51,404 nucleotides of DNA, from positions 1-51,404 of the forward strand of contig JAJOJL010000034.1 in NCBI GenBank assembly GCA_021208645.1. Reading direction: 5' to 3'. Below are positions 26,240-48,440 of the stretch, piece after piece; the first letter of the stretch is position 1; each line of letters begins with the position of its first letter. Below the pieces are notes generated by a model. It was not told the DNA's origin, searched no databases, and was given only the letters and a program-made list of their open reading frames with translations. The position numbers were made by a program, and so were the translations under genes. Source of the DNA: Bacillus sp. (in: firmicutes). GTDB taxonomy: Bacteria; Bacillota; Bacilli; Bacillales; Salisediminibacteriaceae.

Positions 26240-29200
26240 TTACATACTCTCTAATCCTACTAAGCTACCTTTTCCTCCTGCCTCTGCACGAGTAACAATC
26301 AATTTTCTAGGAAGTCGGTCTCTTAACTCTGGAACATGACTAATTACACCAACTGATAAATTATCCGTATGCAATTTTTCCAAAGCACTGATGACGATTT
26401 CCAATAATTCTTGATCTAATGTTCCAAAACCTTCGTCTAAGAAGAAAAATTCCAGTGGATGTTCCCCTTTTAATTGAATGGATGCCGATAAAGATAATGC
26501 CAAAGCTAAAGACGTTAGGAAGGTTTCTCCACCTGATAAGGTTGAAACAGGTCGACGCACACCACCATTGGCATCGTCACGAATAATAAATCCTCCTGAA
26601 GAATCCACTTCAATTGCATAACGTCCCCTTGTCAGGTGATGAAGCCGTTCCGAGGCAAGTCTACTCACTTGAACAAGTTGTTCCTCTGCAATATATTCTA
26701 CAAAGGCTTTGCCACGGAAAACATGATCTAGCTTAGCAAGCCTATCCAAGGCAACTTTCAACTGTTTTTTGGCAGCTTCTAATTCTTCACAACGCTTTAC
26801 CCGGTGTTCCAATTCCCCTAACCTCGCTAGGGCTCCACCACGTTCTGTGCCCAATTCCTCTAGCTTTTTCTTCGACTCATCAAAGTTGGTAACCGTCTGT
26901 TGGAATTGTTCAGAAGTAACATTTCTATCTCCTAACTCCTTTAGGCAATTTTCCCGTGCCACTTCGAGCTGTTGCTTTTTTCTCTTGAACTTGTCCACTT
27001 CCGATTCCAGTTCTTTCATTTCCGGTTCAGTGAGGCTTGCATTTAAAACTTCCTCCTCTGTTTGAAAGGAAGTTCGTGCTACTTGCTCTGACCAATTTAA
27101 TTCGGCTCTCGTGAATCTCTCTTTAGCATGTCGTAACGATTCTTGAGCAACAGAATAATGTTGCTCCAATTTCTTGAAGACATTACTGGCCTGATTCCAT
27201 TTTAACTCCCCTTGATTATAGCGGTTCAGGAGCTCGTCTAAATCTTTCTTCATTGCCTTAATTAAAGACGCCACATCCGTATCTCCCACAATTCCATAAA
27301 TACGATCTTTTTTCTCTGCACAACTCTTTTGCCGCTGTGTGAGCTCTGAACTAATTGATGTTTGTTCCACAAGGGATTGTTGGAGTCTTTCTCGTAGGTT
27401 GGTAATCTCCTTTTCCTTCTCTTCAATAAATGGAACACTCTTTTCTATTCTTTCCCGACAACCATCAGCTTGTTCTTCTTTTTTTCTGGAGAGTTACAAG
27501 GATAGCTTCCATCGTATCATAGGAAAACGAAGGATAAGAATCCTTCCATTTTTCCTGCAAACGCTCCAACACACCCTTCTCACCTATCAATTTTTTGTCT
27601 AATTCTGCTAATCTATCAATGTATCCCTTTTGGTTCGTCCGTTTCTCTTTTACAGAATCTTGTACAACTTGATAGTTTTTATAATAGTTGCCAACTGTAC
27701 TTAACAATGATTCTACCGTATCTTGTTCTTTCAACATTTTATTTTGGTAGTTATTCCAAGACACAGGGGATTCTATAGCAGACTCATCTAGTAATGTAGC
27801 AGAATGAACTTCCCCTGCAGCAAGGGGCCCAATATCGTCATTGGTAACTACGTCATTCAGCTTCCGTGTCCCTTCATCCAGCTTCCATTTAAGCCGCTCC
27901 AGATTCCTCTCTCCAACGAGTACTTCGTCCATGGTTGACTCAATCCATTGATAGGCATGGTCATCATGGGATGTGACTTTTGCATCTGTCTCTGTTAATG
28001 GATGATGCAACGATCCACAGACTGGACAAGGTTCGTCCTTTTGTAAATCCTCACGTAGCTGATTTGCTAAAAAGATGTCGTTTTTTCCTTTTCTAGCTCT
28101 TCCTTTCGTTCCTTAAGACGTTTGAAATAACGAGTTAACTCCCGTTCTTCATCTGAGATCCGTTCGTACCATTGGTAAAGCTGTTTGAAAACATGGATTA
28201 CTTCCCCTTTAAGCTCCTTTACGACTTTTTCTCTTTCTGTTACTTCCTGATCTACCATTCTCTTATTGTCCAGTAAGGTGGATTTCTCTTCCTCTAGTTC
28301 CTTCATTTTCTCAGCAGTTTGTAAGATAGTACGCTTCTCTTCCATGGCAGAGTAGGTTTGTCTTTTCACTTCTAAAGGAACCTCTAACTCCTTTAACTGA
28401 ACTTTCAAATCCTTTTGGGCGTTTTCAAACCGACGAAGGTCGTCTTCTCCTTTCGCCTTCTCTTGTTTCATCACTTCTATTTCTTTGTGAAGTTTTTCTA
28501 AACTAACCTGTAAAGCTTCCATTTCTTTTTCTTCCACATTGATGGTTTTTAATTCTTCGAGAATCCGAGAATACTCGTCTAGCTTCAGGCGTAAAGGAGT
28601 CTCCTGCTGTTCCTTAGCCACTTTTGCCTCTTTCCATTCCTTTTCCGCTGTTTCCAATGTTTCTTTTGCAGCAGTAAGTTTCCCTAACGTATCTGTAGCT
28701 TCCTTCTCTAAAGCAATCACAATGGATTTACTTTCTTTCAACTCATTTACATATGGAAGTAACACGGAAGCCTCGGCTGCTTTATTCAGCTTTGCCTGTA
28801 AGGTGTTTACTCGTTCCTCTTCCTGGAGTAATTTCGCGAGGGCATTTTCAACCCCTTCCATTTCCTCCATCCATTTTCGAACGACCTTTTCCTCTTCTAG
28901 TTGTTTCCCTAAGGCTTCATGTGACTTCCGCCAATCCTCCAGGTCTTTAGTAAGCTGAGCAACTTTTCCCTTTGCTTCCTCTAGCGCTTCTTGAGAAGCA
29001 TTTCCTAACCCCGATTGTTCTTTTTCTATCAATTCGATTTCATGTCTCGTGTTCATTAATCGGGTCCGAAGTTTTCCAATAAGTTCATCCCCGTATTGTT
29101 CTAGATGAAATAAACGCTGAAGCATTTGCCGGCGATCGCTTCCCTTTAGGGAAAGAAATTCGGAGAACTTCCCTTGAGGCAATACAACGGCACGGGTAAA

Positions 29201-29629
29201 GTCATCGATAGAAAGTCCTAATAAATCCTCTACAGCTTTCGTCACATCCCCGGCTTTGTCTGCAATGACTTCTGGTACCCCTGTTACATCAATAAATCGG
29301 CAAGTGGCTGACCGGATATTTGCTTCTCCAGATCGTTTAAAGGTCCGTTCCACCTCGTAACGCTTTGCTCTACCCCCATGTCCTAATTGAAAAGTGAAGG
29401 AAACAGCCAATGTATCTTCCCCATGGTTTAATATCCCTTGTGTATTGTTAGGTGCCCGCTCCACTTTTCCGTAGAGGGCCAGTGTCATGGCATCTAATAA
29501 CGATGACTTTCCACTACCTGTCGGACCAAAGATCCCAAACACGCCACCTTCACAGAGGGCTTCAAAATCAACCGTTTGTTTTTCCCTGAAGCTATGCAAG
29601 CCTTTAACAGTCAATTTAATCGGTTTCAT
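26240..29629 (-). CDS. sbcC: exonuclease subunit SbcC (Rad50 type), two frameshifts
   Basis: This SMC-like ATPase of about 1129 residues works with SbcD as a nuclease on hairpins and blocked DNA ends. The N-terminal half has Walker A FGPTGSGKSSLLDA. Long coiled coils follow, separated by a zinc hook with CPVCGSLHHP (about residue 540), and the C-terminal half holds the signature VSTLSGGETFLTSLALALSL and Walker B FFLDEGFGTLD. Breaks are seen near 28083 (a run of five A should be six: KEKNDIFLANQLRED) and 27482 (seven A should be six: LQKKEEQADGCRE). The start overlaps the sbcD stop by four bases. Confidence 0.93.
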
Positions 29630-30795
29630 TGGTCAGCCTCCTCTTCGTTAATCAATTCCAAAAATAACGATACTAACTCCGCCTCTGCTGCCGCTCCCCC
29701 AGTTTGTCTGGAGTAAAAACGTTTAAATAGTTCATCAATGGGAACCTGCCTCGAAGATTCTGTTGTGGCTGCAATTTGCTCTTCAGGAAAAACAGGACGG
29801 ATTGTTAATAAACCAGGGTACGCTTTTTTCATTTGATGAATCTCCTCGATGGAAGGTGTCTCCTCCATGTGTATTTCCAACTCAATCCAAGCATTTATAT
29901 CCCGTTTTTCGTCCATCCATTGGAAAACTTGAGGAATTCCATTCGTAGCTTTCCAACGAACTAGAGGTTTTCCAGCCCGTAACGGAAGCTCTTCCGCCAC
30001 TGCTTGTCCTCCTGGGGACACATCTACAATCGTCACAGACTTGGCATAGCCTGATTCAGAAAAACTAAAAGCCAATGGGGATCCAGAATAACGAGCTAAT
30101 TTCGGTGCCCGCTTCACCTCTTGTGGCCGATGCAGGTGGCCTAACGCCGTATACTGTACATTGTCAGGTAAATTTACGGCACGAATCGTATAAGCACCAC
30201 CTACTTCTATTGGTCGTTCTGACTCCGTACTGCTTCCCCCAGCCACAAATAAATGACTCATGGCCACATTAATGTCCTTCGGAGTAAATTCCTTCGTTAA
30301 TTGTTGAAAGATCCACTGGACCTTCTCATCATAAGCTTCCCGGAGAGCAAGCTCGTCCCCTTCTGCCACAAAACTCTCCCGCAGTCTTGATTCAGAAGGA
30401 TAAGGAAGAGCTGCTACATTTAAAAACAGATCCTGCTTTGGAACATGAACCCTCACTTTTTCCACCGTTGGATAACCTAATATCGTAATCCCTTGTTTTT
30501 TTATCAACGTCCTTGCAGCCGCCAACCGATCTGGATGGTCATGATTACCAGCTATCACTAAAATGGGGATGTTGCCACTATTGCTCAACCGTGCCATGGA
30601 CTCGTAAAACAATTCTTCTGCCTTCGCAGGTGGGTTCACAGAATCAAACACATCCCCTGCCATTAAAATGGCATCCACCTTTTGATCTATAATAATTTCC
30701 TGTAACTCATCAAAAAATTGCTCATGCTCCGAGAGGCGGTCCCTCCCCTCAAGGGTCCGCCCTAAATGCCAGTCTGCCGTATGGAGTAATCTCAT
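29626..30795 (-). CDS. sbcD: exonuclease subunit SbcD (Mre11 type)
   Basis: This 389-residue metallophosphoesterase is the nuclease subunit of SbcCD. Metal-binding motifs are in order: TADWHLG, MAGDVFD, IAGNHDHPDR, AMSHLF and LGHLHRPQ. The reading frame is intact. It overlaps addA and sbcC by four bases on each side, so all three are translated as a coupled operon. Confidence 0.95.
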   Translation of the reverse strand: MRLLHTADWHLGRTLEGRDRLSEHEQFFDELQEIIIDQKVDAILMAGDVFDSVNPPAKAEELFYESMARLSNSGNIPILVIAGNHDHPDRLAAARTLIKKQGITILGYPTVEKVRVHVPKQDLFLNVAALPYPSESRLRESFVAEGDELALREAYDEKVQWIFQQLTKEFTPKDINVAMSHLFVAGGSSTESERPIEVGGAYTIRAVNLPDNVQYTALGHLHRPQEVKRAPKLARYSGSPLAFSFSESGYAKSVTIVDVSPGGQAVAEELPLRAGKPLVRWKATNGIPQVFQWMDEKRDINAWIELEIHMEETPSIEEIHQMKKAYPGLLTIRPVFPEEQIAATTESSRQVPIDELFKRFYSRQTGGAAAEAELVSLFLELINEEEADQ

Positions 30796-33700
30796 GCTTC
30801 TTCCCCTTCTTTCATCGTAATCACATGCCCTCCATCAAAAAAGAAGACATGGGTTTCATCAATGGGAACATTCCAACTCTCTTCCAATGCTTCTTGATAC
30901 AAGGATATTTGAAGTTCATAGCGTTCTTTTAAAGTAGAATACGCTTCTGCAAATCCACCTGGAAATCTTCCTTCAATAGTATCTGTCTTGTAATCTAGCA
31001 ACACAATTCTACCAGATTTATCCTGAAACACACAGTCTACTACCCCTTGCATGAGCACCGTTTCATCCTTGCCCCCACTCCATGTTTTAAAAGCTCTCTG
31101 AGCAGGTATGCCTAAACTAAAGGGGATTTCTCTCTCGACCCATTGGGCAGACAACAACCGTTTACCAAGATCTGTTGCAAAAAAGCTAAGGACCTTCTCT
31201 ATATCAATGGCTTCCCCTTGTTCCTTCGTTAACAACTCGTCCTGCACCATCAGCAAAACTTTCTTCTCAATGGATTCCTTCGTAGGGATTTCTACTAGGG
31301 AGATATGCTGCATCAATGCGTGCATAACCGTCCCTGTTTCTGCTGGACTTAATGCTTTCTTTTGTAAAAACTTAGGCCTGTCAGCAAACTCTGAACGGAA
31401 TCCATCGGAAAGCGGTTTATCACTATATTCATCCATTAATTCCTTTTTCAGCTCACTCACTGTTTGTTTTGAACGATGAATGGCTGCAGCTTTGTATGGG
31501 TAACTCCACTCTAAGCGCTCTTTTACCTCACTTTGCTTCTCCGATTTAAACGGCACTGGCATTAGTTGGGCAATACGCTCTTCCATTTCCCCTGTCTGGA
31601 TAAACCCTTCTTCCGCTACTGTTTGAAGTTCATCTTGTTCCACCACGGACAAGGACCATTTTGCTGGATCATATTTTACAGCATCAAAGGAAGATTCTTC
31701 TTCTTCCAGTAAATAATCGATGGCAGCACGGTGTCTGAGGACCGCCGGGCCAACCCAGTCCAAATAGGAACTGCCCTTTTCCCGATCTACTGCCGGTAGA
31801 AGCCAGTCGTCTACAGACAAAAATTCTTTCCATTTATCTATGGATTTTTCTACTTCATTGACTGTTCCTACTAAATACAACTTCTCCTTAGCTCTCGTTA
31901 ATGCCACATACAAAACTCGCATTTCTTCGGCGATAGCTTCTAAATGCATGCGTTTTTTTAATGGCGATTTGAGGTAGTGAAGGATAAGCTACCCGAAGCT
32001 TCGGATCAATGTATTTCGAACCAAACCCCAAATCCTTATGCAGTAAATACTTTCCATACAAGTCCTGCATATTAAACTTTTTATTGGTACCTGCAATGAA
32101 AACAACAGGGAATTCTAAACCTTTACTTTTATGAATCGTCATTATTCTCACGACATCTTCCTGCTCTCCTAGTGCCCTTGCTGTTCCAAGATCGTCTCCA
32201 CGCTCCTGCATTCTCTCCACAAAACGTAAGAATCGGAACAAGCCTCGGAACGAGGTTGCTTCATAAGCACGAGCACGGTCGTACAATGCCCTTAAGTTTG
32301 CTTGTCGCTGCTTTCCGCCTGGAAGGCCTCCCACATAATCAAAATAGCCTGTTTCACGATATAACATCCAAATTAACTCGGATAGGGCACCAGCCCTAGC
32401 CTTCGAACGCCACCGCTCCAGTTTGCCAAGGAAGTTTTCCGCTTTCAACCGTAGCTCTTCTTCAGGCGACTCCACTGCCGTTTTCCTTAATGCATCATAA
32501 TACGAGCCGTGCCGGTCCATAATCCGAACATGGGCCAGTTGTTGCTCTGTTAATCGGTAAACTGGAGAACGCAAAACTGCTGCGACTGGAATATCTTGAT
32601 ACGGATTATCAATAACCTTTAAGAGGGACATCATTACTTGTACTTCTACTGCTTCAAAATAGCCTGTGGATAGGTCCGCATAAATAGGGATACCTTCTTT
32701 TTTACACTCATCCATCATCGTTGCCGCCCAAGGCATAGAGCGCATTAAAATAACAATATCCCGGTATGTTACGGGACGAGCTCCCTTAATAGTTTTATCA
32801 TACACTGGGTGTTTCGATTGAATCAGTTTTTGTATTTGCTGAATAATATAGCGAGTTTCCAATTGTGATGTTTCCAAATCCTCTTCTAAGGAAACCTGTT
32901 CATCTCCTGGCTCTTGAACAGCTATTGGCTTACCTTTATTAATAATAGCTAACTCCGCCTCCAAGCCATCCTGTTTAGGATAGTCTAAATTACCTAGTTT
33001 TAACTCAGCAGCATCATCGTAAGCAATTTCTCCTATAGTCTCATCCATAATTTGTCGGAAAATAAAGTTTGTGGCATCTAACACTTCTGAGCGGCTACGG
33101 AAATTTTTTGCCAAGTCAATCCGCCACCCTTCGCAATCCCCTTCCCTTTTATAAAGCTTATATTTCGTTAAGAACAAAGAAGGCTCTGCTAACCGGAAGC
33201 GGTAAATACTTTGTTTTACATCCCCTACCATAAAACGGTTATTCGCCTTCGCCAACAATGACAAAATCGTTTCTTGAACAAGGTTTGTATCTTGGTATTC
33301 ATCTGTCAGGACTTCATGAAAATGATCCTGGAATTCCTTTGCGGCAACAGTCGGCGTCCAGTTATGATCCGCCGTGTTTTTCTTCCCTAATACGGCTAAG
33401 CAATAATGCTCCAAATCATTGAAATCAACCGTTGCCTTCCCCTGCTTTGCTGCTGCATATCGTTGGGAAAATTCCTTCACTAACCGAACAATAGTGGCAA
33501 CAGACGGAGCCATTTCCTTCAGTTCTTCCACAAAGACAGATGGCTCTTTATTAAATAACTCCTTTTGCATGACTTCCAACTGTTTTTTTTGCACGGTCCC
33601 GTAACCCTTTTACTTGCTCCTTTAGGGATTCATCGACCGCATCTCTTTTTGATATGGTTTTTAATCGACCAAACTTCATCTGCTGGAAGGCATGGTAGAG

Positions 33701-34528
33701 GAGCTCCCACGACTCCACCTTTAGAAGGGATTCTACTAATGATATTTCCACTTCTAAGTTCTCACTGTATTTCGCAGGACCTGCAGGTTCCTTTGTCAAC
33801 TCCATTCCTTTTTGGAGCCAAGACAATATGCCTGTTAGCTGATGCTTTACGTCTTGAAACAAATCTTCTGTCCACGGCAGATCTTCGATTGTTTCTACAT
33901 TCTCAAGCTCGTACGTCTTTACCATTTCATCGAGCCAAGCGTTTGGATCAGGGTGAGAGCGAGAAAAGGTATACAACTTTCCAATTAGTGCCCTTAAGGG
34001 ATCGTCACTTTTATCACTACTGAAACGATCGACCGCATCAAAAAACAGGTCATTATTTTCTTTACCGTATTCCTCTTCAAACAAATCTTCCATTATTTCT
34101 TCCCGGATCAATTCCCCCTCCGTATCGTCTAAAATACGGAAATTTGGATCTACCTCCACGTCAAAGTAATATTGACGTACAACCTTCATACAGAAGGAGT
34201 GAAGAGTAGAAATATTTGCTCGGTTTAATAGTGTTAACTGACGTCGCAAGTGGAGGGAGGCAGGATTTTTCGTTAACTCTTTTTCAATGGCCTCCCCAAT
34301 CCGATTACGCATTTCTGCTGCGGCCGCATTAGTGAAAGTTACGATGAGAAGGCGATCCACATCAATTTGATGCTCGACTATTTTCCGGATGATCCGTTCT
34401 ACAAGTACTGCCGTTTTTTCCACTTCCCAGCCTGCTGCCGCTACTAAAATATTATTCCCTGTCGCATCAATGGCTTTCCACTGATCATCGGTCCATGTAG
34501 CACCTTCTGGCTTGGGGCTAATCTTCAT
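30792..34528 (-). CDS. addA: ATP-dependent helicase/nuclease subunit AddA, two frameshifts
   Basis: AddA is the UvrD-like helicase and nuclease subunit of AddAB, which resects double-strand breaks up to Chi. Landmarks are GATWTDDQWKAID, VTFTNAAAAEMRNRI, DVKQSIYRFRLAEPSLF, TIHKSKGLEFPVVFIAGT and the RecB-type nuclease motif IVLLDYKTDTI. Two A-run breaks occur near 33590 and 31952, each one A too many. The Walker A region is odd: expected VAAAAGSGKTA reads VAAAGWEVEKTA, explained by three one-base insertions that together keep the frame. As written, the ATPase site would be lost. The restored length is about 1243 residues, as in B. subtilis. Confidence 0.9.
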
Positions 34529-37500
34529 CCTTTTCCCCTCCTTCTTTACGGATTTTATCCAATACTTCTTCCTTCTTTAACTTCCCAACCCGGCGGTAAT
34601 CGTTTGTCTCCAATGTAGGATCAAACTGACAAACTGGTTTAAAGGAACAATAGGTACAAGCTACATGTTGTTTGTTTTTCACAGGTGTTATATCTATCTT
34701 ACCGTCTGTGATTGCAGAGCCTATTTCCTCTACTTTCTTTCTTAGAAATTGCTTTAATGCTACGTAATCTTCATCGGAGATGACCGATGAATCTTTATAG
34801 AATTCGCCACTTTCTTTAATTGCAGCAGGAATAATATTGGATCGTCCTCCAGTTTCTAAATTATGGTCCATAAGTTTTGCCACATCTGGATTAGCACTTA
34901 TGAGGCCTTTCATCTTAAACTCTTTGAAAAGTTCTTCTTCAATTTGCTCTACCGTAAGCTTTTCATTACGCTGTAAAAGTGGATTGTGTACATGAAAATA
35001 AAGAACGCCTGCAGGAGAGGCTTTAGCACCTAACCATTTTTCTGAGAAACTGATCACTACATCTAAATAAATAAGCATTTGTAATGATAAGCCGTAATAT
35101 ACGTCTGTTAATTGAACATCTTTTTTACTAGATTTATAGTCGATAACTCGAAGTAATAAGCCATTAGCCCCTTGTGACTTATCAACTCTGTCAATTCTCC
35201 CAACTAATTGTAGCTTCGATCCATTATCTAGTTGAAATTGTAACGGAGGTAGGTCTTGATTTGGACCAAAGGCCACCTCTAACCCTATTGGAGAAAACCC
35301 AGATGATTTAGATTGCTCTGCTAAAACAGAAGAGGCCCTTGCCACCACTTCCTCTAGTTTTTGTTTAATATAGTTATATCGATTCGAACTAAGCAAAATC
35401 TCCCGTTGGATTTTAGGCGCTAATTCTGCAACAATTGTCTTTGCCAATGTCTCACATTCTGCCTTCGTAAGCTGGGAAAAATCTTTTCCCGCCTTCCGCA
35501 AATGTTCGGCCATTTCCTTTAAAGCTGCGTGAAACAACGTCCCAATATCTGGCGCTTCTAACTTGTACGTCTCCCGGTCCCGTAAGCTAAGGCCATAGTT
35601 GGCATATTGAGCAAATGGGCAGGATTGGTATTGTTCCATTCTCGACACGCTTGTTTGTAATTCCGTTCCATATAATGTCTGACTCAATTCCTTAGATAAG
35701 GGCTTGGCTGTATTCTCATAAAACAAACTATGAAGAACCTGTTTCACTTGGAAATGCCAAGATTCATTTTCTACAAACCAATTATACGCATCCCACCAAA
35801 ACTCTGGTATTGGATAGCCTTTTTTTCCAAGCTTGAAGCTCGTACGTTAAGAAAGATAACGTTTTTCTTGGAGTGTTAATAAATCCTAATTGTTCATCAT
35901 CGGGCATATCTGTCGGTTCATGGAACCACAGCTTTTCTTCAACTTGTGGGAACATATCCTTTACACGTTTTAATACTATGGAAGGCTGTAAACTTTTTCC
36001 TTCATCATCCGCTAATGGATACGTTAAATACAGCCTTTCTGATGGCGTACATTGAGCCATGTAGATAAGGAATGTTTCATTTAATAGCTGACGGGTACTG
36101 CTTGGCGCTATAGAGAGCCCTTCCTTCTGCAAACTTTCCCGTTCTTCTTCTGAGACAATTCCCCCTTCATCAGGTTTAGCTGGAAGCACCCCTTCATTTA
36201 TTCCTAATAGGAAAGCACAACGAACATTAGATAATCGGGAATGCTCCATATCAGCAACGATAACTTGATCAATGGCTGGAGGAATAATAGAAAATTTCAT
36301 ACTTTCTAGCCCTGTATCAAGCATGTTATGAAACAAATCAAGACTTATCTTTTCTTCCCCTGTCATTTCTACCATTTGATCTAATAGTTCAATGACAGCC
36401 CCCCAGACTTGATCATGTTCTTTTGCTTCCTGTGGATGACCTTCATCTACAGCATGGTTACGTAACATTTCTATTTTTTTTGGAACGTGACAAGTTTCTA
36501 AATAGGAATAAAGTACTTCGCAACGTTCCTGTACGGTTTTTGCCCGTTTCATCCCCTTTTCAAGGGTAATAAGGGGGGTCGTTAAAAGGGCTCTTAGCTC
36601 ATTAATTTCTCTTTCAAAACGTTCCTCTTCTATTGTCCGGATTCGCTCTCCATCTGCAGAGGTGCGGACACGGCGGTATGTCCATGGGTCCTTTTGGTAC
36701 CATTTGCTCCCTTGGATTCCATAGGAAAGGACGTAATTTTCCAGTTGGTCTACCCGTTCACGCATCATTGTTACATTTTCTGATAGGGGAAAAAGCATAT
36801 CTGTTTTAAAGGCGCGAAACACTGCTTCATAACGCCAATGCCCTTGAATCACTTCTAATGACGAACGAATAAATTCAATAACTGGATGGTTGAGCATAGA
36901 CCGCTTTTGGTCCATAAATAAAGGAATTTCATAATCTGTGAAAATGGTATCTAATAGGTCAACATAATCTCCAAGGTTTCTTAATACAATGGCCATATCT
37001 TGAAAACGGTAATTTTCGTCCCTTACTAAATGAAGGATTTCCCTTGCTACCCCTTCTACTTCACTACGGCGATGAACGGCAGCAATCATTTCAATGCCGC
37101 TATGATCGTCCATGGTGACAGATGGGCGAACATCAAAATTAGCCTCTAAATGGGGTTAATGCAGAGACAGGAATCGATAGATCCTTTAGGACAACCGCCT
37201 CCTCTACCTTCACCTTAGTTCGGCTACACACATCACTTAGCTCTTGGTAGGTTTTCGCAGTTTCAAAGAACAAATCTAGTTCATTCAACCTCTCCTCCGC
37301 TCCATAAGGCCGGTCAAGGGTCAATGCTAGCTTCACATTCGTACAATTCATAAATAATTGCTCCAAAACAGAGAGCTCCAAAGGTGTAAAGCTATAGAAT
37401 CCGTCAATATAAATATCTGCATTCTTTAAATAAGCTGATTGTGAAATTTTCTCAGCTAGCAGCTTTAAAAAGTCTTCTGAACCTATATAATGATCGGCCA

Positions 37501-38030
37501 TTTCCATTTCTAACCTTTGAAAAACAAGATGAATATCATGTAACTTTTCTTGAAGAACTATATCCTGTGGACGCTTTTTTGTTTTGTTCTTTAAAGAGTT
37601 ATACTTTTCCATGAGCATGTCGTTGGAAACAGAATATCGTTTAAATTCACCAATAAATTGCTCAAGTTGTTCAATAAAACCATTCGTATCTGTCGCCTTG
37701 CCAAAATAGTAAAATTGCTTTTCTCTTTCTCTACTATTTTCCGAAGGAGCATGTGAATGCCTGATCGTTGTATATGATATTTTGAAATACCACCGGTTTC
37801 TTGCAAGATTCGTAAAGCTAATCTGGAAAAACTCAACACTTGAACCCTAGTTGTTCCCCGTTGTTTTGCTTGGATAATCTGCATTTCCGTTTGGAATGTC
37901 ATCTGATCTGGCACCAAGTAAATGATGGGATTTCCTCGTTGGATTTTCTTTTCGTTTTATTCATAACTTCCTTTAGGATAGTTGTGGTCTTCCCTGTACC
38001 TGTTCGTCCTAATATAAAGGAAATGGACAA
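34518..38030 (-). CDS. addB: helicase-exonuclease subunit AddB, four frameshifts
   Basis: AddB is the second nuclease subunit of AddAB. The restored protein has 1170 residues. It starts at TTG (38030, after GAGGTG) with SISFILGRTGTGKTTT, the Walker A of its inactive helicase. The C-terminal nuclease has the iron-sulfur cysteines: one in YQSCPFAQYANYGL and three in ACTYCSFKPVCQFD, plus VIDYKSSKKDV. Single-base breaks lie near 37933 (CCC should be CCCC), 37697 (TTTT should be TTTTT), 37157 (CCCC should be CCC) and 35822 (seven A should be six). The net length is divisible by three. An insertion sequence lies 157 bp upstream. Confidence 0.9.
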
Positions 38031-44073: not shown

Positions 44074-44640
44074 ATGAAAATTGGCTATGCTAGAGTTTCT
44101 ACAGTTGGACAAGACTTGGCAACTCAAAGGGAACTATTGACAGAAGCGGGCTGCAGAAAAATTTTTGTAGAAAAAGTAACTGGAACGAATACTGTCAAAC
44201 GAGAGCAACTTGTAGAAGCGATTGACTTTATGGATGAAGGAGATACATTAGTTGTCACAAAAATTGACAGGTTGGCTCGTTCAATTATTGACCTTAATAA
44301 CATTGTTCAAAAATTAAATGAAAAAGGAATTGGTGTTCACTTCTTAAAAGACAACATGGAGTTTAAAGCTGGAAATGACACTAACAGCATCCAAACATTG
44401 CTCTTTAACATTTTAGGATCATTTGCCCAGTTTGAAAGGGACTTAATAGTTGAAAGAACTACGGAAGGCAGAGAGCGTGCAAAGAAGCAAGGAAAACATA
44501 TGGGGAGACCAGGTCAGCCCGCTAAAAACATTGAAAGAGCAATGGAGTTATATAGACAAAGAGATAGTAACGGAATGAGTGTTAATGATATTGTAAAATT
44601 GACTGGTGTTCCTCGAAGTACAATATATGCAAATAAATAG
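44074..44640 (+). CDS. serine recombinase (resolvase/invertase family)
   Basis: This 188-residue protein has the resolvase N-terminal domain with the nucleophile in IGYARVSTVGQD (Ser in RVST), LVVTKIDRLARS and GSFAQFERDLIVERT, then the C-terminal helix-turn-helix (MSVNDIVKLTGVPRSTIY). This is the Tn3-resolvase and Hin/Gin size class. AGGAGGCG precedes the ATG. Its upstream region carries matching inverted sites. It suggests that the accessory region came from a plasmid or transposon. Confidence 0.93.
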   Translation: MKIGYARVSTVGQDLATQRELLTEAGCRKIFVEKVTGTNTVKREQLVEAIDFMDEGDTLVVTKIDRLARSIIDLNNIVQKLNEKGIGVHFLKDNMEFKAGNDTNSIQTLLFNILGSFAQFERDLIVERTTEGRERAKKQGKHMGRPGQPAKNIERAMELYRQRDSNGMSVNDIVKLTGVPRSTIYANK

Positions 44641-44877: not shown

Positions 44878-46079
44878 ATGAACCAGAATTTTTTTGATGA
44901 ACTGCAGCCGCATAGTGCCGCAAAACTAACTATTCTTAATAACTATGTAATACCTTGGATGAGAAAAATCGTACTAGGTAATCGGGCAATAGGTCGTTGT
45001 TTAATAATTGATGGTTTTGCAGGTGAAGGACTTTATGGTGAAGAGGGTAAAGAAGTTAATGGCTCACCATTCGTATTATTAGACCAAGCCATTGATTTTT
45101 ACAAACAAGCTAAAGCAAATAATTGGCCAGAGCCAAGAATTTTATTATTATTTAATGAATACAATCCAGACAGCTTTTTGTTACTTAAGGAAAACATAAA
45201 AAAAAGATACGGTCTTGATTATAACGAAGATAAATTTTATAACGCAATACCAGATTACCCTAGTGTAAAATTAGCTTTAATGAATGAAACTTTTGAAAAT
45301 GTTCTAATCTCCTTATTAGAAAGAACAAAAGGGAGAATGGTTCCCAGCTTCTGTTTTATTGACCCTTATGGATTTAAAGACACTCCACTACAGCTAATAG
45401 GTGAATATTTGAAAAGTAGAAGTTCTGAGATACTATTAAATTTTATTTATGAAGAAACAAATCGTTTTATAAGGAACAAAAATTCAAAAATAAGAGAACA
45501 TTTGATGAGTCATTTCGGGGTGGATACATTAGATGAGTTAATACAATTGATTGAAGGGAAGAAAAGTGAAGAGAGGAAAAAAGTTATTGTTAACTATTAT
45601 TCTAAACAACTTCAAGAACATGCTGGATATGTACTTAACTTTGATATTTATAAAAACGGACGCACCAAAATGATTTTGTTTTTTGGTTCAAATCATGCAG
45701 GTGGATTAAGAGAAATGAAAAATAGTATGTGGGATATAGACGGAACCGGAAGTTATATATTCAAAAAAGATACTAATGTGCAGGATATTCATTTTGACTT
45801 TATCTATGAAATGGAAGAAGAAGAAAGGCTAAAAAAAATTGGCAGATAGTATTTTTAATCGCTACAAAGGTGAAAATGGTATTCGTGAAGAAGAAGTAGA
45901 TGAACATATCCTTTTTAATACATCATTCCCACCTGATAAATTCTTAAAAAAGACATTAAGATGGATGGAAGAGAAAGGTTTATTGGCAAATGTAAAAAAA
46001 AAGAAATGGGAAAAATAGAAGACCCGGAACTTTTAACGAGGTATATATAGACTTTGATCAGGAACGTATGTTCCGTTAG
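44878..46079 (+). CDS. tcmP: three-Cys-motif partner protein TcmP, two frameshifts
   Basis: The restored protein has about 399 residues. [21 protein letters not shown] is the family landmark near the N-terminus and looks like a Rossmann, methyltransferase-like loop; [15 protein letters not shown] is a second. The C-terminal winged-helix-like part ([20 protein letters not shown]) and the end [17 protein letters not shown] are in other frames: a run of seven A near 45837 should be six, and nine A near 45992 should be eight. TcmP genes are known to pair with three-Cys proteins of the DUF5131 family, and one follows here after 41 bases. The biochemical role is unknown. Confidence 0.82.
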
Positions 46080-46120
46080 TTAGGTACATGTGGTACACTT
46101 GTATCAAGGAGGGATGTATC

Positions 46121-46840
46121 ATGGCTGGTAATTCCAGTATTGAATGGACTGAAGCCACTTGGAATCCCGTAACAGGATGTACAAAAGTTTCGGAAGGTTG
46201 CAGAAATTGTTATGCTGCTACCATGGCAAAAAGGTTGCATGCTATGGGTAATCCTCGTTACGAAAATGGGTTTAATGTTACCTTACAGCATGACTTAATT
46301 ATTAAACCATATGAGTGGAAAAAACCCAAAAGAATATTTGTTAACTCGATGTCAGATTTATTTCATGAAGATGTCCCATTAGACTTCATTCAAAGTGTAT
46401 TTAGAACAATGAACAATACTTTGCACCACACTTATCAGATACTTACAAAGAGACCACAACGCGTAGTACAATTAGCTAATAAATTAAACTGGTCTCCAAA
46501 TATTTGGATGGGGACTAGTGTAGAAAATCAAGAGACAGCATTTAGAATTAATTATTTAGGACAAGTTCCTGCTCACGTTCGCTTTCTATCATGTGAACCC
46601 CTTATAGGCCCTATATATAAATTAGACTTAGATAAGATAAATTGGGTTATAGTAGGTGGTGAAAGTGGAGCAGGTGCAAGACCGATGGAAGCTGATTGGG
46701 TAAGGGATATCCGTGATCAATGCCATGAACAAGCTATAGCATTCTTTTTCAAACAATGGGGTGGTGCTCAAAAGCACAAGAACGGAAGAATACTTGATGA
46801 AAGAACCTACGATGAATATCCCAAAATAGTTAACACGTAA
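46121..46840 (+). CDS. DUF5131 (phage Gp37/Gp68) family three-Cys protein
   Basis: This 239-residue protein starts [20 protein letters not shown] and carries the three-Cys motif as C-x7-C-x2-C (residues 20, 28 and 31 or so), reminiscent of a radical-SAM iron-sulfur site. [58 protein letters not shown] and FFFKQWGG are all family landmarks. AAGGAGGG lies 7 bases before ATG at 46121. It forms a two-gene unit with tcmP. Such pairs occur in phages and mobile islands. A role in nucleotide or DNA modification is only a guess. Confidence 0.88.
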
Positions 46841-47016: not shown

Positions 47017-47083
47017 GAAAAATAAAACCCTCGCCAGGACACAGCCCGCGAGGTTCGATAATCCGGAACGCAGTCTGATTATC
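47017..47083 (-). ncRNA. candidate DUF3800-associated small RNA, upstream copy
   Basis: Read on the minus strand, two hairpins follow each other: GATAATC pairs with GATTATC (13-nt loop), then CCTCGC pairs with GCGAGG (13-nt loop), and GGTTTTATTTTTC follows like a terminator tract. A TATAAT box lies just before it (47093-47088); no good -35 is seen. It is the inverted counterpart of the element at 48072 and points away from the DUF3800 gene. The two share GATAA-x-C, ACCTCGC, GGCTG-x-GTCC-x-GGCGAG. Confidence 0.65.
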
Positions 47084-47137
47084 TACTATTATATATATCC
47101 ATTAAAAATAAATATATTCCCCTTAAGAGGCGTTTTT

Positions 47138-48028
47138 ATGAAAAAATATTGCATTAGTTATCTAGATGAAGCAAAAATTTTTAATACAGGTCCCAATAAA
47201 TCAATTGATCATTATACTATCGTTAGTATCACGTTCGATAGAGATTATTATATCAATACTGTTGAACCGGCGTGGAATCAATTGCGCTTAAACAATGGCA
47301 TACCAGAAGGTCAAGCATTACATTTTACGGATATACGGAATCTTTTGGTCCAAAGATCTATTGAAAAATATAAACCAGAATGGCTTTCCATATTTACTAA
47401 AACTAATTCTCCGGTTAGTGTAGATATGGATTATCAGCGACTTCATGCATTTTTTACAGATGTTGTAGAATTTATTAATCAGTACAACTTTGTTATACAA
47501 GCGACCGGGATAAGATTCGACAAACAAGGGTTGGTTCGTAATATTAGTAATAAATATTTCAAAAACTCAACCTATCAGCCACCATATCATGCACTAAAGG
47601 AACACCTGAATCTCATGGGGGTTTATCTTCTTAATATCCCGGCAGGAAAATTCGACCCTAAAAGAGCAGTATTTTTATCAACAAAATTGAGATTTGACGG
47701 TGATATAGACTTAGGTGAAAGAGATGACCTACGAGAAGCGTTCAACCATTGCATTAGTTTGGGTACCCGCCATTTTAGACCTACTTTCACTAAAACAATC
47801 TTTGATGAAATTCGGTTTGTTGGAAAGGATGAAGTAGGGAGCACGGTCATTAGTCATGCAGGTAATGAAATTACCGATTTTATTACTACGATTATTTCCC
47901 GGCACTTATGGAATATAGATACTCACCTTATACCAGTAAGCATTTCTGGAATGCCTATAATAGAGACTCTGCCACCAATAATTGAAAAGTTGTTTAATAG
48001 CCAAAAAATAGATGATAACATATTTTGA
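47138..48028 (+). CDS. DUF3800-like protein flanked by small RNA elements
   Basis: This 296-residue protein resembles DUF3800 (PF12686): an early acidic motif in CISYLDEAKIF (usual D-E-S-G), GQALHFTDIRNLL in place of the E-L-H-A-x-D-I segment, FDEIRFVGKDE, and AGNEITDFITTIISRH as the C-terminal A-D-x-x-A motif. The family is thought to have an RNase-H-like fold with acidic active site, and its function is unknown. The Asp10/Glu11 and the late Asp residues are the candidates for catalysis. AGAGGCG precedes ATG at 47138, better than an in-frame start at 47015 that would run through the upstream hairpins. Confidence 0.7.
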   Translation: MKKYCISYLDEAKIFNTGPNKSIDHYTIVSITFDRDYYINTVEPAWNQLRLNNGIPEGQALHFTDIRNLLVQRSIEKYKPEWLSIFTKTNSPVSVDMDYQRLHAFFTDVVEFINQYNFVIQATGIRFDKQGLVRNISNKYFKNSTYQPPYHALKEHLNLMGVYLLNIPAGKFDPKRAVFLSTKLRFDGDIDLGERDDLREAFNHCISLGTRHFRPTFTKTIFDEIRFVGKDEVGSTVISHAGNEITDFITTIISRHLWNIDTHLIPVSISGMPIIETLPPIIEKLFNSQKIDDNIF

Positions 48029-48037
48029 TACCATGTG

Positions 48038-48065
48038 TTGACAAATAAAACATTACTGTTATAAT
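48038..48065 (+). promoter_or_regulatory. consensus sigma-A promoter of the downstream small RNA
   Basis: TTGACA-N16-TATAAT, both boxes perfect, begins 10 bases after the DUF3800 stop codon and ends 9 bases before the first hairpin. It is one of the best promoters in the window, and no protein gene follows it closely. Confidence 0.8.
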
Positions 48066-48071
48066 AAATTA

Positions 48072-48138
48072 TAGATAAGCGGGTCGAGAACCTGGCTTTT
48101 CGCACCTCGCAGGCTGAGTCCCGGCGAGTTATTTTTTT
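48072..48138 (+). ncRNA. candidate DUF3800-associated small RNA, downstream copy
   Basis: A transcript from the consensus promoter would start near 48072. It contains GATAAGC paired with GCTTTTC (one A-A mismatch, 14-nt loop), then CTCGC paired with GCGAG (13-nt loop), and ends in TTATTTTTTT, so the second hairpin doubles as an intrinsic terminator. The predicted RNA is about 65 nt. It is homologous to the inverted copy before the DUF3800 gene. Confidence 0.75.
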
Positions 48139-48239
48139 GTGTAAATTTAATTGTTATTAAATGCATGGAGACCTATATCATGCTTTTGCTTTGAGTTGAG
48201 AACTTTAAAATTTTTTTTTAAAAAAAATAGAAGGATTTT

Positions 48240-48291
48240 AAGCACAGTACGCAATAGTATATTTAAATATACTATTCGGCGTACTGTGCTT
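48240..48291. other. long near-perfect hairpin
   Basis: AAGCACAGTACGC pairs with GCGTACTGTGCTT, and between them AATAGTATATTT pairs with AAATATACTATT; only CG is unpaired. The 25-bp stem could be a terminator, a transposon end or a replication hairpin. Confidence 0.6.
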
Positions 48292-48440
48292 TTAATGGCT
48301 TTTTCATAATGTTGTGAAGTGTTTCACTTATGCTGAATAATAAATACGAGAATATAACAGAGATTTTGTTAAACAGAACTACGAAAATATTTAATAGCAA
48401 ATGATATATATATATTCAGATTCAATTGCGGAAGAACATT

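Follow-up and report, generated by a model that had tools for sequence, protein, structure and literature searches.

A conserved two-hairpin RNA accompanies the abortive-infection protein AbiI and recurs in Lactococcus phages

What is the role of two homologous small RNA elements that flank a single gene? This arrangement occurs on contig JAJOJL010000034.1 of Bacillus sp. (GenBank assembly GCA_021208645.1), a stretch of 51,404 nucleotides (nt) which, at its full length, is referred to as the window. The gene in question is abiI. To our knowledge, no mechanism has been settled for AbiI, although the protein has been known for decades. According to the figure legend of a review, AbiI interferes with phage DNA packaging (PMC9952470). 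Here, sequence comparison gives good support to a partnership between AbiI and a two-hairpin RNA; this conserved partner and its phage-borne copy make the AbiI mechanism directly testable.

Two RNA elements face outward from abiI

Homologous RNA elements of about 62 nt each are located on both sides of the single abiI gene and face outward (Table 1), as had been described in an earlier interpretation based on the DNA letters (the sequence-only reading). In each element, a short linker joins a GATAA-type stem to a CTCGC/GCGAG stem, which a regular-expression scan placed on both strands, and a T tract follows. Stems and T tract had been recognized before; the plain 13-nt loop assigned to the second hairpin, however, gives way to a short inner stem and an unpaired G. 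Both hairpins follow a single design: an outer and a short inner stem, with one conserved G left unpaired on the 3' side.

The consensus promoter TTGACA-N16-TATAAT, already noted directly before the downstream copy, is indeed present, is of the sigma-A type and ends 8 nt before the first stem. It scores 12/12, a value that 0/1000 shuffles of its 60-nt stretch equalled. The promoter of the upstream copy was no better than chance (8/12; 67% of shuffles equally good).

Table 1 Features of the window at and around the abiI locus.
Feature	Position	Strand	Parts	Basis
abiI gene, 296 amino acids, predicted RNase H-fold protein of the DUF3800 superfamily	47138-48028	plus		PADLOC AbiI profile, AlphaFold2 (AF2) model, fold matches
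Upstream copy of the AbiI-associated RNA	47022-47083	minus	hairpin 1 47057-47083, hairpin 2 47030-47052, T tract	covariance-model scores and covariation
Downstream copy of the AbiI-associated RNA	48074-48136	plus	hairpin 1 48074-48101, hairpin 2 48106-48128, T tract	covariance-model scores
Promoter of the downstream copy, consensus sigma-A type	48038-48065	plus	-35 48038-48043, -10 48060-48065	TTGACA-N16-TATAAT
Possible weak -10 of the upstream copy	47088-47093	minus	TATAAT, 4 nt before stem 1	score no better than shuffles
Serine recombinase	44074-44640			upstream of abiI
TcmP (three-Cys-motif partner), candidate defence gene outside the RNA-protein pair	44878-45849	plus		TIGR04474 E 9.5e-43, PDC-M30A E 3.4e-52
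DUF5131, candidate defence gene outside the RNA-protein pair	46121-46840	plus		PF07505 E 9.2e-103, PDC-M41B/M30B

The protein is an AbiI and a remote relative of DUF3800

The window protein matches the PADLOC AbiI profile (PDLC02346) with an expectation value (E) of 7.5e-59, residues 3-258 aligning to 4-258 of 295; by this match it is an AbiI, a protein of the lactococcal abortive-infection family. No Pfam and no NCBIfam family was found for it at E<=1. The AbiI profile is matched by 11/11 proteins of the AbiI alignment, and Pfam DUF3800 (PF12686) gives weak matches in 3/11, the best at E 0.0014, with the gathering score not reached. DUF3800 as a precise family was therefore rejected and retained as a superfamily: hhalign relates AbiI to DUF3800 at 93.7% (E 2e-7). 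In an AF2 model of AbiI (predicted local distance difference test 80, predicted template modelling score 0.84), the top viral structure match obtained with Foldseek is a DUF3800 protein (E 6.6e-11), and rows of RNase H and Argonaute are found among the fold matches. Judged from these profiles and the predicted model, AbiI is a remote member of the DUF3800 RNase H-fold superfamily, with common ancestry and an RNase H-type fold. The label "DUF3800-like" used for this gene in the sequence-only reading holds at this remote level, but not for the Pfam family.

The element behaves as a structured RNA

Covariance model R1 was trained on 12 elements from AbiI loci, including the upstream copy of the window but no same-strand downstream copy. 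A search of this kind had been suggested by the sequence-only reading, and it found the held-out downstream copy of the window at E 5e-8 in 145 kb. In the same 145 kb, R1 recovered 6/7 independent non-training elements at E<=2.1e-5, the missed one being the upstream copy of Cohnella. The scores are 67.6 bits (upstream copy, a training sequence) and 43.3 bits (downstream copy, held out) with R1, and 69.4 and 61 bits with model R2.

The refitted alignment (18 distinct rows) contains standard pairs in 95.6% of its cells and two-sided changes at 14/19 pairs. Double changes were counted in 68 cells, compared with 22.0 +/- 4.4 in shuffled controls and no more than 11 in any slid one, a count that covered nested pairs only. 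Stem 2, for example, reads CTCGC/GCGAG, CTTAC/GTAAG or CTTGT/ACAAG according to genus. Several points temper this picture. Further pair types are not above shuffles (28 vs 29.7; 445/500 as high), the alignment was fitted to the structure and so favours it, and kinship of the sequences inflates covariation counts. In addition, the downstream copy of the window has one U-U mismatch in stem 1 and, when folded alone, adopts a minimum-energy structure that differs from the consensus fold.

The RNA is present at all AbiI loci

AbiI profile matches are rare. They were found in 3/398 genomes of the class, in 3/395 of the order to which an Enterococcus locus belongs and in 1/348 of the phylum; one of the class matches (G285) covers 68 residues inside another gene and was dropped as chance. 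Ten loci were obtained with the alignment query over a named genome collection, while plasmids contributed eight Enterococcus faecalis records and one of Planococcus. With the eight E. faecalis records counted as a single plasmid family, and with the window and the genome G542 added, the set comprises 14 distinct loci. Rows duplicating the window or L007 were left out, and L006, identical to L005, was counted once. A Lactococcus AbiI locus was not found in the plasmid searches, and the set is thus without the founding lactococcal gene.

The two-hairpin RNA is present at 14/14 of these loci, including the Planococcus plasmid, where the abiI match lies in three pieces with a disrupted frame and the RNA is intact. 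Two regular-expression matches (L007:1391 and L012:2242) had no partner stem and were dropped. Three layouts occur. An outward-facing pair was found at 5/14 loci (window, Alicyclobacillus, Peribacillus, Heliorestis and Cohnella), with the upstream copies on the other strand 54-64 nt before the start codon and the downstream copies on the same strand 32-49 nt after the stop. At 19.9 bits in a search with the filters off, and otherwise missed at E<=1, the upstream copy of Cohnella is weak and stayed outside the alignment and the models. At eight loci (E. faecalis, Streptococcus cuniculi, E. innesii, Tetragenococcus, Caryophanon, two Macrococcus and Planococcus), one or two copies closely follow the gene on the opposite strand, the nearest copy being 3-13 nt from the abiI stop at the seven measured. 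In G542, finally, the only copy is on the same strand as the open frame and follows it at a distance of about 133 nt. Closeness to abiI, rather than a fixed operon order, is therefore the property of the AbiI system.

Promoter signals differ between these positions. The six same-strand downstream copies score 12, 11, 10, 12, 9 and 12 of 12, with the -10 ending 6-8 nt before stem 1, and in 5/6 the score is equalled by at most 4% of shuffles. Upstream copies (n=5) score 7-9, which 18-75% of shuffles equal. Among the opposite-strand downstream copies (n=10), the promoter score is equalled by fewer than 5% of shuffles in six (Str, Ein1, Tet1, Cary, MacL, MacC) but not in the other four (Ein2, Tet2, Efa, Plano).

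These positions bear on the possibility that the elements are regulatory, that is, terminators or protein-binding sites through which AbiI would control its own expression. The T tracts, the short distance to the abiI stop at the seven opposite-strand loci and the location of the upstream copies before the start codon would suit such a function. Same-strand downstream copies, however, lie after the gene and have consensus-like promoters of their own, and a plain terminator would require neither covariation in hairpin 1 nor the orphan and phage copies described below. We consider a regulatory role of this kind quite unlikely.

The RNA is linked to AbiI rather than to DUF3800 at large

The genome scans scored part of the first-look candidates, namely 150 for the host genome and for the homologue genomes and 13 per genome for the 398 class genomes; diverged copies may therefore have escaped detection. 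In the host genome (3.95 Mb, 76.6% complete; 150/606 candidates scored), the two copies of the window are the sole matches at E<=1. The 10 homologue genomes gave 17 matches at E<=0.1, of which 15 are strong and all at the abiI locus; the two weak ones (E 0.03 and 0.1) lie elsewhere and were not counted. Ten class genomes had a match at E<=0.01. Four of these are strong (the genome of the window, Alicyclobacillus (G306), G388 and G113), and the six weak ones (E 2.5e-4 to 0.0099) were likewise left uncounted.

The copies in G388 and G113 (58 bits each) are orphans, as neither genome has an AbiI profile match, and tblastn revealed no abiI remnant in the surrounding 8-9 kb. Their occurrence is sporadic: the RNA is found in 1/11 genomes of the G113 family, and G388 is the sole genome sampled of its genus. 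The G113 orphan directly adjoins a small open frame (L040:3136-3543) whose CPVC zinc-ribbon motif is reminiscent of transposon-associated TnpB proteins, and an insertion may have removed an abiI gene. Furthermore, two species of one genus contain near-identical weak matches (L043:4140-4205 and L045:3967-4032; 22-23 bits) with both hairpins, a T-rich end and no AbiI nearby, possibly distant relatives of the RNA with another partner.

Could the pair instead be the ends of a compact mobile element, as the sequence-only reading had also offered? Recombinases near some loci and the sporadic orphans would agree with this, as would the outward-facing pairs. Nevertheless, no such pair was found at 9/14 loci, the host genome at its 76.6% completeness showed no third or dispersed copy, and promoters and terminators indicate an RNA function. 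Mobility of this kind appears highly improbable.

The sequence-only reading had further named homologous genes without hairpins as a case that would speak against a protein-RNA unit. None was found among the 14 AbiI loci, whereas 13/13 ordinary DUF3800 loci of the same order are without the AbiI-type element. The RNA is therefore linked to AbiI, and its interpretation as a general companion of DUF3800 was rejected. Reportedly, the DUF3800-I to -XI RNA motifs in Rfam were described by Weinberg in 2017. They resemble the AbiI case in the remote homology of the proteins, the RNase H-type fold and a conserved structured RNA adjoining the gene; they differ from it in that AbiI stays below the Pfam cut-off, that no AbiI-type element occurs at the 13 DUF3800 loci and that none of their models matched at E<=10 in the window stretch or at the 14 loci. 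Within the window, no match attains the threshold of its Rfam family. A match to the small nucleolar RNA snR83 overlapping the Cohnella downstream copy (25.9 bits vs a cut-off of 75; E 0.058) was taken as chance.

Lactococcus phages carry copies of the RNA

The hairpin-2 pattern matched 20 viral contigs, three of which, Lactococcus phages 949, AM4 and WRP3, contain the complete two-hairpin element; three further hairpin patterns yielded no additional phage case. In the 949 and AM4 records, the element is unannotated and located between transfer RNA (tRNA) genes. Across ten phage stretches, it was found in six (949, WRP3, AM1, AM4 and AM5 at 38.6-40.5 bits, PMBT69 at 26 bits) and was absent from P1048 and LW81, both of the same genus, as well as from D4446 and 56301. 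The PMBT69 copy shows a two-sided change at one pair of stem 1, and its hairpin 2 differs. Altogether, 12 phage records match 80% or more of the 221-nt region with no less than 96.8% identity, and the model was run on 949, WRP3 and AM1 of these. AbiI had no match in phage records at E<=1e-3. The Lactococcus phages with the RNA element are presumably virulent.

Just upstream of the element in phage 949 (L090:2972-3031), a partial match to skipping-rope RNA (RF02924) was observed at L071:11380-11640; it scores 29 bits vs a cut-off of 36.7 and is truncated where the stretch ends. In 949-group phages, several non-coding RNAs may reside in the tRNA cluster. SNORD19B, overlapping the 949 copy with 17.9 bits vs a cut-off of 50 (E 2.6), was taken as chance. 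The AbiI identity, the RNA at each AbiI locus found and these phage copies had all been overlooked in the sequence-only reading.

AbiI as a putative RNA-controlled nuclease

Among the possibilities raised by the sequence-only reading, a ribonucleoprotein or RNA-controlled nuclease agrees best with a structured RNA pair that is linked to one remote DUF3800-superfamily protein. Specifically, we moderately favour a model in which AbiI, as a latent nuclease, is restrained by an RNA antitoxin with its own transcription, and some 949-group phages carry a decoy. The model is based on the protein family and its predicted fold, on the conservation, covariation and tight linkage of the RNA, on promoter and terminator signals, and on the phage and orphan copies; from these we infer transcription, binding, inhibition, nuclease activity, trigger and decoy role. 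The system would combine AbiI, as a latent RNase H-fold nuclease, with an RNA of about 62 nt that is transcribed separately, folds into two similar hairpins with a bulged G in each, and has its own terminator. In a healthy cell, the RNA would be bound to AbiI and keep it inactive. A phage that halts host transcription or destroys the RNA would deplete the short RNA before the protein, upon which released AbiI would cut nucleic acid and abort the infection. In some lactococcal 949-group phages, the RNA copy among the tRNA genes could replace the lost antitoxin. We favour the inhibitory direction because lactococcal phages would be expected to keep an inhibitor of AbiI, not an activator. The orphan RNAs of G388 and G113 are compatible with either an inhibitor or a remnant.

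The opposite direction is an RNA that activates AbiI as a scaffold or guide, so that AbiI and RNA together would form the active nuclease with the hairpins as a handle, as in RNA-guided RNase H-fold systems. RNase H and Argonaute among the fold matches, the close linkage of RNA and protein, and the association of DUF3800 proteins elsewhere with non-coding RNAs and Cas12a2 (PMC10910872) speak for it. Yet no guide-like segment is seen, since the conserved element runs from stem 1 to the terminator and its two hairpins are only a few bases apart, and an activator of a defence protein would be unexpected in phages, which nevertheless have copies. Such a role is in our view rather unlikely. A further option is that the RNA serves as a bait or sensor, so that a protein or nuclease of the phage would switch AbiI by acting on the RNA, and phage copies would titrate that factor. 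This option draws on the same linkage and phage data, and recognition by a protein is suggested by the bulged G and the apical motif, which are conserved in both hairpins. However, nothing observed here points directly to a second ligand, and the sequence hardly separates this option from the antitoxin model; we judge it unlikely.

Under the antitoxin model, the closest parallel is provided by type III toxin-antitoxin systems (ToxIN, AbiQ, CptIN), which resemble AbiI in three respects: they, too, include an Abi family, a small RNA adjoins a putative nuclease, and phages can carry a mimic of the RNA, as phage phiTE does with pseudo-ToxI (PMC3475682). A type III-like unit had been proposed before, and it stands as an analogy. 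Type III is defined by antitoxin RNA and toxin in one operon, repeats and a terminator between them (PMC5086642). Type III systems have one operon with one promoter, whereas the AbiI RNA lies downstream or on the other strand, with own promoters at 5/6 same-strand downstream copies. Their antitoxin consists of direct tandem repeats cut to monomers; the AbiI RNA has one two-hairpin unit per element and at most two spaced copies per side. Variable strand, two-hairpin structure and the RNase H-type fold are further differences. Since the type III definition does not apply, AbiI may be said to work like, but not to be, a type III system. AvcID likewise pairs a phage-defence toxin with an RNA antitoxin (PMC10511110), as proposed for AbiI, but its toxin is a deoxycytidylate deaminase and AbiI a predicted RNase H-fold protein.

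More tentatively, and with less confidence than in the model itself, we suggest a new kind of RNA-controlled suicide system, in which an RNase H-fold nuclease is combined with an independently transcribed non-repeat RNA antitoxin, several Audreyjarvisvirus-group Lactococcus phages keep a decoy in their tRNA clusters, and the same logic could account for the RNA motifs found near further DUF3800 genes. Among the papers listed from the open-access literature, none was seen to report that AbiI has an RNA partner; most subscription papers were outside the search, hence this is not proof of novelty. If true, an RNA-controlled RNase H-fold effector would be added to bacterial immunity, the DUF3800-linked RNA motifs would obtain a functional reading, and phage RNA mimicry would gain another natural case besides phiTE.

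Genomic neighbourhood

The surroundings of abiI look like a defence island, with TcmP, DUF5131 and the serine recombinase upstream and a piece of a type III restriction methylase downstream. TcmP and DUF5131 are adjacent and lie directly 5' of abiI (44878-46840; PADLOC candidates PDC-M30A/B and PDC-M41B), representing a second candidate defence unit. In a scan of 10 neighbour proteins, other abiI loci were also found beside defence genes, for example AbiH in Heliorestis (E 4e-55; L009:2023-3117) and type I restriction genes in Macrococcus lamae (L015:1534-4291). A near-perfect palindrome of about 60 nt with A/T runs around it is located 3' of the second RNA (48236-48295) and could be a bidirectional terminator or a small repeat. 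Finally, several long genes at 26240-38000, which we take to be SbcC-like and AddA/AddB-like, are split across adjacent frames, which fits frame errors of the draft assembly (76.6% complete) or decay.
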